Shown piece after piece: positions 16,711-24,418 of a stretch of 64,000 nucleotides of DNA (position 1 is the stretch's first letter; each line of letters opens with the position of its first letter). The stretch lies in NCBI GenBank assembly GCA_011364925.1, contig RDOA01000011.1, forward strand, positions 1 to 64,000, in the 5' to 3' direction. The stretch is from Promethearchaeota archaeon (GTDB lineage Archaea; Asgardarchaeota; Lokiarchaeia; Sigyniarchaeales; SOKP01). The notes under the pieces are model-generated. The model was not told the DNA's origin. It was given only the letters and a program-made list of their open reading frames with translations, and searched no databases. The position numbers were made by a program, and so were the translations under genes.

Positions 16711-17103
16711 TTAATCGATTATCACTTCGTGAATAGAACTTATTACATCTTTAATTTTAACTAATGCTTGATAAAGATCCTTTATAATTCCGAACTCACC
16801 TACTACTAGTACAATCTCAATCTTTTTATCAGCAATTCTCCAATCAGTAATAGCTTTAATAATTAAATGAAAATTATGATAAAGTTCAGAAATTTCATCT
16901 GTAATTGGTTCTTTAAAAGGATATACAAGATTTATATTCATAATCCTATATCCATCTAAATTTTCGAATTTTTCATGACTCTCAATAAATTTTAATATAG
17001 AATCTCTCAAGGCTTCACTTTTTGAACTGAACCCACTTTGATTTCGAACTTTCTCGAATCTATCTAACAAATCATCGCTAATTTGAAGAGAAATGATTTT
17101 CAT
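16711..17103 (-). CDS. NikR-like ribbon-helix-helix regulator lacking nickel ligands
   Basis: The N-terminal 45 residues form a CopG/Arc ribbon-helix-helix DNA-binding domain (ISLQISDDLLDRFEKV, then SKSEALRDSI), and the rest is an ACT-like ligand domain as in NikR (VLVVGEFGIIKDL). Aligned by eye to E. coli NikR, the nickel ligands H87, H89 and C95 fall on T86, W88 and K94. It probably does not sense nickel in the NikR manner. It ends 12 bases from the nadC stop (convergent) and is transcribed away from the surface-protein gene's 3' end. Its regulon is unknown. Confidence 0.82.
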   Translation of the reverse strand: MKIISLQISDDLLDRFEKVRNQSGFSSKSEALRDSILKFIESHEKFENLDGYRIMNINLVYPFKEPITDEISELYHNFHLIIKAITDWRIADKKIEIVLVVGEFGIIKDLYQALVKIKDVISSIHEVIID

Positions 17104-17172: not shown

Positions 17173-18774
17173 CTATGCCCTTCTTTTCTTTAGGATTATC
17201 ATAGTAATTCCAACGGCGGAGAGAATACCTCCTGGAATGGTCATACCATATAACAAACCAAGGGAGAGTACTGATGGATTAAAAGGCAAATTCATATCGT
17301 ATTGAGCCAAAATCGGGACAACCTCATCTCTAAATATTGGTAACCATTTAAGTATTGCATCTACATGGCTGTTCTCCAAATTTAAAGATGTCATAATTTC
17401 TATACGAGTTGGTTGATTTCGGTTATTCAATAAACTATACCAAGATTGAATTCCATCTGGGTTGACTAACGCAAGGTCATTTGAGGCATCAAACAAGCGT
17501 TCTGCCGATTCTAATAAAATTTCCGATGGTGTAGGTACACCAACCTCCCATCCTGAAATCCCATTACCAACTGGAAGGATTAATCCATTTGGATATAATG
17601 TTCCATTAGTCCATTGAGCATAGAATAGAATCTCAGAGTATCTTGTTACAGTCATCCCCCTGTCGTATAAAAACAAACCTGGTACCACATTTTCTTTAAA
17701 CGAATGGTTATGACCCCAAAGCCAATTAATTATAGCATCAAATTGAAAATCTTCAAGATTTAAAACTGTTTTTAAAGTTTCTTTTGTTGTATTAGCTATT
17801 TCATCAGTACCATTAGCTGCAAGCCATTTTGCTAAACCATCAGTCTCCTGTAATGATGGTAATTCACCACGATAAGTGATATTCATAAAAGCATAATCAT
17901 TTTCGGGGTTAAACAGTTCAAGGGTAGTAGCCAGAGAAAGATTAGTTGCTTGTGGAAAACCTGCTTCAAATCCAGTAACGCTATAAGGTAATCCAAGTAA
18001 ATCACCAAGATCGAGTTGACCCATTGAAGCATTTGCCCATTGGTCATAATACATAAGATTCGCAATATCTACAGTCGACAATCCTACATACTCAGGAGGA
18101 CACATTGAACTATTAAGAATTAGATTTATAGCTTCAACCATATAATAATCGATAATATAGCTAGTTAGATTAGTTAATTGACCCCATGTGGAGTTATAAT
18201 TTGTTGTGATAAAATCTCGTTTTGAATTATTCTCCATTGCTTCTTCATAGACATTCAAGTAATCTAATACACCCCAACCTACCTCTACATCTTCCATTAA
18301 ACCGGGTAATCCGATTGTCTCATTACCAAAGGTTAACTTTTCGAGAGCGGTGGCAGTATAGTTTAAGGACATTGTAGCGTTAGTTATATATTCAGATATA
18401 CCTTTAATTGGAGGATAACCCAAACTTGTTAGAAGAGTACTCAGTGTTTGGTAATTAAAAATTAAATTAATTCCAGCCATTGCAAGAAGATTGTAGAACT
18501 CGCTTAAACTGCCAGCTACAAATGTACAGTTGACTAAGAAATGGATTAAAGGAAATCCTTCTGTATACACGCCTGATAACACATCTGGTATCGCCATGAT
18601 TTTAAGAGTATTATTAATTTCAGGGACCATTTCTTGTTGAATACCTAGAAGCGCTTCTGGAACTCCTTCAGCCATTTCATTATTTATCATCATGCTCATT
18701 CCTACTCCAGTAGGTATTAATCCAACTCCAATAATAATTGCAAGAATACTTAAAACCTCACCTTTCTTAGACAT
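17173..18774 (-). CDS. Unrecognised surface protein with N- and C-terminal membrane anchors and an internal duplication
   Basis: I do not recognise a family. Hydrophobic segments at about residues 8-30 and 503-527 bracket a large ectodomain of some 470 residues, and the protein ends with KKRRA, a cytoplasmic-type basic tail. Sixteen N-x-S/T sequons lie between residues 54 and 390, consistent with a glycosylated exterior domain. Residues about 237-375 and 380-494 are a tandem duplication: each copy has QW-N-S/T, G-E-G-P, LF-x3-ND-A, a leucine-rich middle and DAI-x-WL-x6-8-EVVP. The two-anchor layout resembles eukaryotic CD36/LIMP-2 topology only in outline. The gene has its own 206-base upstream gap. 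Base composition matches its neighbours. Confidence 0.7.
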   Translation of the reverse strand: MSKKGEVLSILAIIIGVGLIPTGVGMSMMINNEMAEGVPEALLGIQQEMVPEINNTLKIMAIPDVLSGVYTEGFPLIHFLVNCTFVAGSLSEFYNLLAMAGINLIFNYQTLSTLLTSLGYPPIKGISEYITNATMSLNYTATALEKLTFGNETIGLPGLMEDVEVGWGVLDYLNVYEEAMENNSKRDFITTNYNSTWGQLTNLTSYIIDYYMVEAINLILNSSMCPPEYVGLSTVDIANLMYYDQWANASMGQLDLGDLLGLPYSVTGFEAGFPQATNLSLATTLELFNPENDYAFMNITYRGELPSLQETDGLAKWLAANGTDEIANTTKETLKTVLNLEDFQFDAIINWLWGHNHSFKENVVPGLFLYDRGMTVTRYSEILFYAQWTNGTLYPNGLILPVGNGISGWEVGVPTPSEILLESAERLFDASNDLALVNPDGIQSWYSLLNNRNQPTRIEIMTSLNLENSHVDAILKWLPIFRDEVVPILAQYDMNLPFNPSVLSLGLLYGMTIPGGILSAVGITMIILKKRRA

Positions 18775-19829: not shown

Positions 19830-20504
19830 TTATGAAGATCTTAGTCTTCTAGGATAAGAAGCAAACAAGCTGGTAAACATTTTCTCGTGTTCTTCAAGAT
19901 TTTCTTCAGGGATAGCTAACGGTTCTCCGATTTGCAATGCACCCCAATATACTTTTGCCAGCTTTTCCAGGATTACAGCAAAACGTACCACATGATCCAA
20001 AGATTTACCACATACAATAGCGCCATGATTTGCTAGAATCGCTGCATTATTTCTACCTAAGGCGTTCAGTGCGCTCACTCCCATCTCTTCCGTGTGAGCT
20101 TCAGTAATTTCAGTACATCGAATTTCACCACCAAGAAAAATCAACTGTTGTTCCATTATAATTGGAATGTTTTTTCTTAGAATTGAAAGCATAGACACAT
20201 AAGGAGAATGATTATGGATAACGCATTTAACTTTAGGTCTATCCTTATATACTGCAAGATGCATTTTAACTTCAGTAGATGGAATTTTACCCGTACCTAT
20301 TACATTCCCGCTTAAATCCATGTGTACAATCAAATCAGGAGTCAATAGATCATACTTAGTTGAAGTGGGAGTCACAAGTATTTCGTTGCTATTTACCCGA
20401 ACACTGACATTACCTTCTCCATCCTCAACCAATCCTTTAGCGTAAATTTCTTGAGCTCCTCTTACAACTATTTTTCGCAATTGTTCTAATTTATCCGTTT
20501 CCAT
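19830..20504 (-). CDS. Class II aldolase (fuculose-phosphate aldolase family)
   Basis: The 224-residue protein has the FucA/AraD fold and an intact zinc site: the catalytic Glu is E78 (PSTEV), and the zinc histidines are H97, H99 (IHNHSPY) and H160 (LANHGA). The family performs retro-aldol cleavage of sugar 1-phosphates to dihydroxyacetone phosphate plus an aldehyde, epimerises ribulose 5-phosphate, or decarboxylates 3-oxo-tetronate phosphates. It heads a two-gene unit with the TIM-barrel isomerase. A second aldolase domain occurs in the fusion protein 2.2 kb upstream, so the cluster encodes two distinct copies. Confidence 0.9.
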   Translation of the reverse strand: METDKLEQLRKIVVRGAQEIYAKGLVEDGEGNVSVRVNSNEILVTPTSTKYDLLTPDLIVHMDLSGNVIGTGKIPSTEVKMHLAVYKDRPKVKCVIHNHSPYVSMLSILRKNIPIIMEQQLIFLGGEIRCTEITEAHTEEMGVSALNALGRNNAAILANHGAIVCGKSLDHVVRFAVILEKLAKVYWGALQIGEPLAIPEENLEEHEKMFTSLFASYPRRLRSS

Positions 20505-22729: not shown

Positions 22730-24412
22730 TTAGATTTTTTTAGAATCTTTAAAAAGATCAAAAACATCCATTTCATAATCAATTGTGTCTTCAGGGAGGA
22801 GAGAAGGCTCTTTAATTAATTTCGCTAAATAATAAATTTTAGATCCCCTTTCTAAATATCGTAACACAGTGTAGGCACCTTCTAAATGACTCCCACAGCA
22901 TAAACTTCCATGGTTTGCGAGAATTACAGCATTTCTCTCTTCTAAACTTGCAAGCACATTCTCAGCTAAATCTAGACTCCCCGCTTCTCCATATTTTGCA
23001 CATTTTACTTCTCCTCCTAAGTAAGGAACAAGTTCTTCCATTACGGGAGGTAAAGTTAAATTGAGAGTGCTAAGTATTGTTGAAAATACACCATGAGAGT
23101 GGATTATCGCATTGACATCTTCACGTTCTTTATAAATGCCTAGATGGAGATTCTTTTCTACTGATGGATTTCTTTCCCCTTCAATAACTTTACCATCTAG
23201 ATTTATAATTAAAATGTCACTCGATACCATTTCTTCATAATTTACATTACTAGGCGTAATCAATACCATTTCTTCGTTCTCTCTTCTTATTCTCATGCTC
23301 ACATTTCCCGCCGATCCAATAACATGACTATCATCTAGTAATCTTTTACAAATCCTTACAATTTCTTCTTTGCATTTTTTGATTGACTCATCCAATGGCT
23401 CCTTTTTTTCTTTATATTCTTCAAAAACTTCAGGATTTAACACATGTGAAGGAATTCCTTTATTTAACCAAGTTTCAATATCAGCAAGGAGCATTTTTGA
23501 TTGTCTCTGTATAACCTCGTTTGTATTTCCACAAACATGAGGCAATACTATGACATTATCTAATTTTAAAAACTCATTATCTTCATCAATAGGTTCTAAG
23601 GGAAAGACATCTAATGCCGCTCCAGCAATATCTCTATTTTTTAGAGCTTGGAATAAGTAATCGTAGTCTACTAAGCTTGCTTTCGCAGTGTTTATTAAAA
23701 ATGCTGTTTGCTTCATCATATTTATATATTCTTCATTAATTAAATTATCATTCTCGTCAGTTGCAACAGCATGAATAGTGATAAAATCGGACTCTTTCAT
23801 TAACATATCCAAGTCTGTTTTCTCACCGTATTTTTCAACAATTTCATCTGAAACTAACGGATCGTAAATGAGTAGCTTAACTCCAAATGGCTTTAAGCGT
23901 TCAGCAACTCGATGTCCTATTTGACCAAAACCAATAATTCCAATTGTCTTATCCATTAGTTCACTCCCCATAAACCTATTATAACATTTAATCCAATCTT
24001 CGAATTCAATTATTTCAAAATCATCAGAATGCAAAAACTTATCAACTTGAGTCAAATTTCTCGCTAAAGATATTATTAATCCTATTGTTAACTCAGCAAC
24101 CGCAACAACATTCCTAAGAGGAGTATAAATAACAGGGATTTTTTTGTGTGTGGCAGCCTCTAAATTAATATTAAATGGATCGCCTCTGCAAGATCCAATC
24201 AATTTTAAATTAGTGCTTTCAAATAATTCAGCCTTTTTTAAATCATCTGCAACCGTAATAAAAATATCATAGTCTTTTAACTTTTCAATCATTTCATTAA
24301 CATCAAAATAAATAATACCAGTTTCTCTCCAGCTCTCATATGTAATATCTAATTTCGTTTCCAATTTTTCTAAAACATCATCAGATATACTTGCAGTAAT
24401 AAATGCTCTCAT
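22730..24412 (-). CDS. Fusion of D-2-hydroxyacid dehydrogenase and class II aldolase
   Basis: Residues 1-330 are a D-2-hydroxyacid dehydrogenase of the phosphoglycerate-dehydrogenase type: CRGDPFNINLEAAT, RNVVAVAELT, the NAD motif GFGQIG at 161-166, the Glu at E273 (LEP) and the His at H292 (PHVCGN). The catalytic Arg position in NTAK is Lys (K244). After a charged linker, residues 340-560 are a class II aldolase with E419, H438, H440 and H501 all in place. The joined reactions suggest channelling of an oxidised or reduced sugar acid into cleavage. Start ATG 24412 follows AGGTGA by six bases. The reading frame is continuous with no sign of assembly error. Confidence 0.9.
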   Translation of the reverse strand: MRAFITASISDDVLEKLETKLDITYESWRETGIIYFDVNEMIEKLKDYDIFITVADDLKKAELFESTNLKLIGSCRGDPFNINLEAATHKKIPVIYTPLRNVVAVAELTIGLIISLARNLTQVDKFLHSDDFEIIEFEDWIKCYNRFMGSELMDKTIGIIGFGQIGHRVAERLKPFGVKLLIYDPLVSDEIVEKYGEKTDLDMLMKESDFITIHAVATDENDNLINEEYINMMKQTAFLINTAKASLVDYDYLFQALKNRDIAGAALDVFPLEPIDEDNEFLKLDNVIVLPHVCGNTNEVIQRQSKMLLADIETWLNKGIPSHVLNPEVFEEYKEKKEPLDESIKKCKEEIVRICKRLLDDSHVIGSAGNVSMRIRRENEEMVLITPSNVNYEEMVSSDILIINLDGKVIEGERNPSVEKNLHLGIYKEREDVNAIIHSHGVFSTILSTLNLTLPPVMEELVPYLGGEVKCAKYGEAGSLDLAENVLASLEERNAVILANHGSLCCGSHLEGAYTVLRYLERGSKIYYLAKLIKEPSLLPEDTIDYEMDVFDLFKDSKKI

Positions 24413-24418
24413 CACTTC

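Follow-up and report, generated by a model that had tools for sequence, protein, structure and literature searches.

A barrel-less two-anchor protein of Lokiarchaeia with probable homology to the apex and N-terminal anchor of Asgard CD36

Class B scavenger receptors (SR-B: CD36, LIMP-2/SCARB2 and SR-B1; Pfam family PF01130) are distributed across eukaryotes (PMC10715195). Two membrane anchors surround their ectodomain, in which apex helices recognize ligands and lipids pass through the tunnel of a barrel (PMC10715195 and references therein). The eukaryotic apex tolerates lineage-specific expansions, at just the position that the modules described below occupy in Asgard CD36 (PMC10715195). The family has until now been described only in eukaryotes, and we found no open-access paper linking CD36 with Asgard archaea; subscription papers and preprints were outside that search. 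Here we describe a gene from a 64,000-nucleotide stretch of a Promethearchaeota archaeon genome (contig RDOA01000011.1, positions 1 to 64,000; "the window"). It encodes a protein with a membrane anchor at each end whose apex and N-terminal anchor are, with high confidence, homologous to those of CD36/SR-B proteins encoded in Asgard genomes. We consider it probable that this two-anchor protein derives from an Asgard SR-B, keeps the apex without the barrel, and serves at the cell surface as a glycosylated receptor or adhesin.

Because a sequence-only reading of the window had likened the topology to that of CD36, the Pfam CD36 model was searched across the phylum, and it scored above its curated cut-off in 12 of 228 genomes. 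Bona fide CD36/SR-B genes occur in Heimdall- and Lokiarchaeal metagenome-assembled genomes (MAGs), at L061:3573-6326, L062:4423-7929, L063:4964-7489, L064:4701-7028, L067:4295-6706 and L068-L072, and their distribution among Asgards takes in families f1, f11, f13, f14 and f16. By phmmer these proteins match LIMP-2/CD36 structures at E values of about 1e-51 to 1e-47. The L061 protein, 917 amino acids (aa) long, scores 4.9e-98 against Pfam CD36 and about 1e-51 by phmmer; its AlphaFold2 (AF2) model, of modest confidence with a predicted local distance difference test score (pLDDT) of 61.6, gives 13 Foldseek matches below 0.001, all of them SR-B, with target template modelling (TM) scores of 0.75-0.78 against LIMP-2/CD36. 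In alignment with LIMP-2, human apex residues 138-157 are replaced by L061 residues 150-621, a stretch that contains two modules also found in the window protein, designated A and QW, and a further module type. These Asgard CD36 genes are perhaps by themselves the larger finding. The third module type (YLQWG...DLDP...GYPE-WAW...LLNG), at about 500-600 in L061 and about 630-860 in L062, is seemingly a diverged QW module. The L061 barrel at residues 698-907 also has a weak Pfam PorA match (1.5e-4, below cut-off) and resembles mycobacterial LmcA by Foldseek (probability 0.96-0.99), which hints that the barrel superfamily may be wider.

Direct searches with the window protein find no known family for its repeat, as the sequence-only reading had supposed: no Pfam family at E <= 10, nothing above chance in NCBIfam, and no credible match by sequence in PDB. 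Kinetochore proteins retrieved from PDB by phmmer (E 0.007-0.25) were unsupported by profile search and are taken as matches of helical composition. No relative was found in viral, phage or plasmid collections, and a single-protein scan of the genome contigs with the window protein found nothing. PF01130 is absent from the families matched by 24 relatives, and was not found in the window protein's own genome. The AF2 model, built with 24 family sequences, has a mean pLDDT of 88.9 and a predicted TM score of 0.76, and is helical apart from two 3-residue strands; Foldseek against PDB returns no fold match (best E 0.19, probability 0.08).

Comparison with the Asgard CD36 proteins gives a different result. 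By phmmer the window protein alone matches L061 at E = 1.4e-21 (residues 149-511) and L062 at 6e-27, and its modules map between the barrel halves of the Asgard proteins. Hidden Markov models (HMMs) of the two-anchor proteins match the apex of ten Asgard CD36 open reading frames (ORFs) at 8e-26 to 7e-9 and have no match among reversed sequences; since these HMMs were built solely from two-anchor proteins, the test is not circular. In pairwise alignment, window residues 38-390 reach z = 36.5 against the L061 apex, while aligning the full-length window protein with the two L061 barrel halves yields z = -0.3 and -0.8. The N-terminal anchor is homologous as well: its family HMM matches Asgard CD36 N-terminal anchors at 2e-13 to 6e-5, with one further at 0.15 and no other ORF among 814 below 0.27, and the window anchor aligns with that of L067 at z = 12.8. 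Across 224 Asgard genomes, matches to the two-anchor profile outside the class Lokiarchaeia come from only four genomes (G112, G113, G120 and G136), all within CD36 ORFs, where the relatives of the window protein lie between the two half-matches to CD36 or, on contigs that hold one half alone, next to that half. The sequence-only reading, which likened the topology to that of CD36/LIMP-2 and claimed no sequence link, was therefore right about the topology and too cautious about the link.

The window protein shares with SR-B the two transmembrane helices flanking an ectodomain and, by homology to the Asgard members, the helical apex that CD36 carries between motifs M4 and M6. Unlike SR-B, it has no match to the PF01130 profile and no detectable asymmetric beta-barrel with an internal lipid tunnel. 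Because both profile and barrel were sought and neither was found, we do not file it as a CD36 member; it is a homologous, barrel-less relative. The Asgard CD36 proteins with expanded apex (L061, L062 and L065; G112, G136 and G120) show the same order of N-terminal anchor, stem, A and QW and are likewise enriched in sequons, but keep both barrel halves (about 110 and 280 residues) and carry one recognized QW module plus the further module type. The A and QW modules were not detected in solved mammalian apices. Apex-expanded protist SR-B (Dictyostelium LmpA, Phytophthora; PMC10715195) have helical expansions at the corresponding place in the CD36 fold; these reportedly belong to single lineages and are not homologous to any known domain (PMC10715195). 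The window protein has two Cys residues and Asgard CD36 L061 has none; disulphide conservation in the SR-B ectodomain is treated as a metazoan matter (PMC10715195).

The ectodomain ends in a repeat of about 120 residues, the "QW-N-G-T" module, whose consensus opens F-Y-E-Q-W-A-N-G-T. The alignment of residues 237-376 with residues 377-500 has a BLOSUM62 score of 139 (shuffled mean 28.8, maximum 62, z = 21), the motifs noted earlier falling in register, and profile-profile comparison by hhalign gives probability 99.9 and E = 1.3e-34; the pairwise z is to be preferred, since the second-half profile also contains extra modules of longer relatives. The tandem duplication proposed from sequence is thus real as a repeat, but is not a simple two-copy event: in the family, an HMM built up from the two repeats of the window protein detects from one to six QW modules per protein, preceded by module A and a helical stem, and complete ORFs span about 480 to 1150 aa. 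The region before residue 237 aligns pairwise with the repeats at z of about 0, and a profile match of module A as a third QW copy is suggestive at most (probability 7, E = 0.005). Relatives occur in 41 of the 83 genomes of the class; some genomes have several paralogues, and the window genome has a single copy. In a module tree, with few columns and many forks unresolved, the last, membrane-proximal copies form nearly one group (2 label changes over 30 modules, shuffled mean 25.9) and first and middle copies intermix; therefore the two modules of the window protein seem to have diverged long ago, and the longer proteins to have grown by later local duplication.

Both membrane segments recognized by the sequence-only reading are present, as hydrophobic stretches at residues 7-25 and 510-528 with Lys/Arg at both extreme termini. 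Its count of 16 N-x-S/T sequons also holds: 1000 composition-keeping shuffles average 5.5 (standard deviation 2.1, maximum 13), none reaching 16. At one fixed position an Asn occurs in 96 of 106 QW-motif modules, in 95 of those 96 as N-x-S/T, and the window genome encodes an STT3 oligosaccharyltransferase; glycosylation of the two-anchor proteins is therefore plausible.

In the mechanism we propose, the two anchors would hold the ectodomain outside the cell, where a helical stem would bear one A and two QW modules, the counterpart of the apex that in Asgard CD36 senses ligands at the membrane-distal end. With neither half of the lipid-tunnel barrel present, the helical modules might bind an external ligand, be it a protein, a glycan or a lipid-bearing molecule, but no lipid would pass through a tunnel; differences in module number, from one to six, might tune reach or avidity. 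Retention of apex and anchors without the barrel suggests recognition without transport, and favors a receptor or adhesin, the role that the sequence-only reading had proposed and that remains plausible. The homology is well supported; we infer the function from it, and this functional step is why we hold the reading as a whole less firmly than the homology. The main functional rival would make the family a part of the cell envelope, an S-layer-like or glycocalyx scaffold. Its richness in sequons, its variable repeat number and the several paralogues of some genomes would suit such a coat. However, many good genomes of the class gave no member of the family, which is single-copy here, unlike an essential coat, and the part of SR-B to which it is homologous is the ligand-sensing apex (PMC10715195). 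We consider a structural coat rather unlikely.

Gene order also connects the two protein types. Seven Lokiarchaeal genomes share a chromosomal slot, c3-c2-c4-X-c1-c6-c5-c7, in which X is a CD36 gene in three (G036, G033 and G056) and a two-anchor gene in four (G055, G067, G057 and G040). X lies between c4 and c1, a helix-turn-helix gene encoding a winged-helix regulator, and the c3-c2 and c6-c5-c7 flanks are found in nearly all seven. At other loci, L039, L069 and L071 among them, homologues of c1 likewise lie near genes of the two types, and c1 is a candidate shared regulator of CD36 and two-anchor genes. The c1 gene at L049:5338-6045(-) and its homologues adjoin CD36 and two-anchor genes at many Lokiarchaeal loci, and the shared slot of G067 holds two-anchor genes as a tandem pair (L032:6103-9456(+)), a sign of recent gene duplication.

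Several observations weigh against descent from an Asgard SR-B. The likeness of the C-terminal anchor to that of CD36 is weak (z = 3.5), and direct homology sought there found nothing stronger. Neither Pfam CD36 nor any SR-B structure is matched directly by a protein of the two-anchor family, and no direct homology was detected between the window protein and mammalian SR-B apices; the link runs solely through Asgard CD36, whose AF2 model has low confidence in the apex. Within the slot, CD36 and two-anchor genes are on opposite strands, so the two-anchor gene did not arise by simple in-place deletion of a CD36 gene. The window gene itself is outside the slot; the corresponding region of its genome is cut off where a contig stops, with flank c2 at that end and c7 not found. 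A c1-like gene elsewhere in this genome was considered as a slot marker and rejected, as none of the slot's other neighbours is beside it.

The weak C-terminal anchor match and the opposite strand, together with the great plasticity of module number, could instead point to domain shuffling, in which A/QW would be a free surface-binding domain placed separately in CD36 apices and in unrelated two-anchor proteins, with no descent from SR-B. Against this, the N-terminal anchor is homologous too, at E values of 2e-13 to 6e-5 with no competitor below 0.27; the N-anchor/stem/A/QW order is colinear; both gene types use one slot beside the same regulator; and outside the class, among the 224 Asgard genomes, the modules are seen only in CD36 ORFs. 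We judge shuffling unlikely.

For descent from an Asgard SR-B, we infer that CD36 with a modular apex came first and that the barrel was lost within the class. Parsimony favors this order because two-anchor genes are seen only in the class and CD36 in five Asgard families and in eukaryotes; the direction is qualified by the need for two deletions or a recombination, and by the difference in gene strand. The reverse, an ancestral two-anchor protein that became CD36 by addition of barrel halves on either side of the apex, would fit the far greater abundance of two-anchor proteins than of CD36 in the class, but not the taxonomic spread just given (for eukaryotes, PMC10715195), nor the constant presence of the barrel in eukaryotic SR-B, where the apex is often small; it seems highly improbable. 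Although the data are MAGs, eukaryotic contamination or chance motif sharing can hardly explain the CD36 link, given that the CD36 ORFs are long, lack introns and come from several MAG series (titles: Heimdallarchaeota, Lokiarchaeota or archaeon), that a scan of 84,980 species, confined to the peptide patterns used, returned only those series, that recognizable CD36 neighbours are prokaryotic (chorismate mutase, QueE-like, thiolase, ThiF), that three Lokiarchaeal CD36 loci share synteny, and that the reversed-sequence control was empty.

A broader scenario has, in our estimate, an even chance of being right: SR-B would predate eukaryotes, the Asgard ancestor would have had a CD36 receptor whose apex was modular, and the large apex-only family would have split off in Lokiarchaeia. 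If so, the surface recognition tied to eukaryotic phagosomes and lipid uptake would be of archaeal origin. Asgard CD36, together with a family that has its apex and anchor but no barrel, makes the origin of this receptor family testable and offers a candidate surface-receptor system common to Asgards and eukaryotes; the two functions of SR-B, apex recognition and barrel transport, may thereby be separated in nature.

Table 1. Coordinates, in the window, of the two-anchor gene and its parts.
Feature	Position	Strand	Basis
Coding sequence, putative two-anchor apex-only SR-B relative, 533 aa, ATG start	17173..18774	(-)	ORF list; single copy in genome; family in 41/83 class genomes
N-terminal membrane anchor, residues 3-36	18667..18768	(-)	AF2 helix 3-36, hydrophobic peak 7-25
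Helical stem, residues 38-107	18454..18663	(-)	AF2 helices 38-60 and 62-107; matches CD36 apex start in L062/L073/L061, 4e-6 to 1.5e-4
Module A (KGISEY...LNYT...PGL...YNSTW-QL), residues 111-220	18115..18444	(-)	Family HMM matches Asgard CD36 apex L061/L062/L065, 1e-16 to 1e-22
QW module 1 (repeat B), residues 238-374	17653..18063	(-)	Repeat z = 21; module HMM; "first/mid" type in module tree
QW module 2 (repeat C), residues 381-497	17284..17634	(-)	Module HMM; membrane-proximal "last" type in module tree
Conserved module sequon N248 (QWANAS)	18031..18033	(-)	N-x-S/T kept in 95/96 QWxN modules
Conserved module sequon N390 (QWTNGT)	17605..17607	(-)	N-x-S/T kept in 95/96 QWxN modules
C-terminal membrane anchor, residues 500-532	17179..17277	(-)	AF2 helix 500-532, hydrophobic 510-528

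Directly downstream of the two-anchor gene, on the same strand, the window encodes a NikR-like ribbon-helix-helix regulator (16711-17103(-)). Elsewhere in the window, a single ORF (22730-24415(-)) fuses D-2-hydroxyacid dehydrogenase and class II aldolase domains, and a stand-alone class II aldolase lies near it at 19830-20504.
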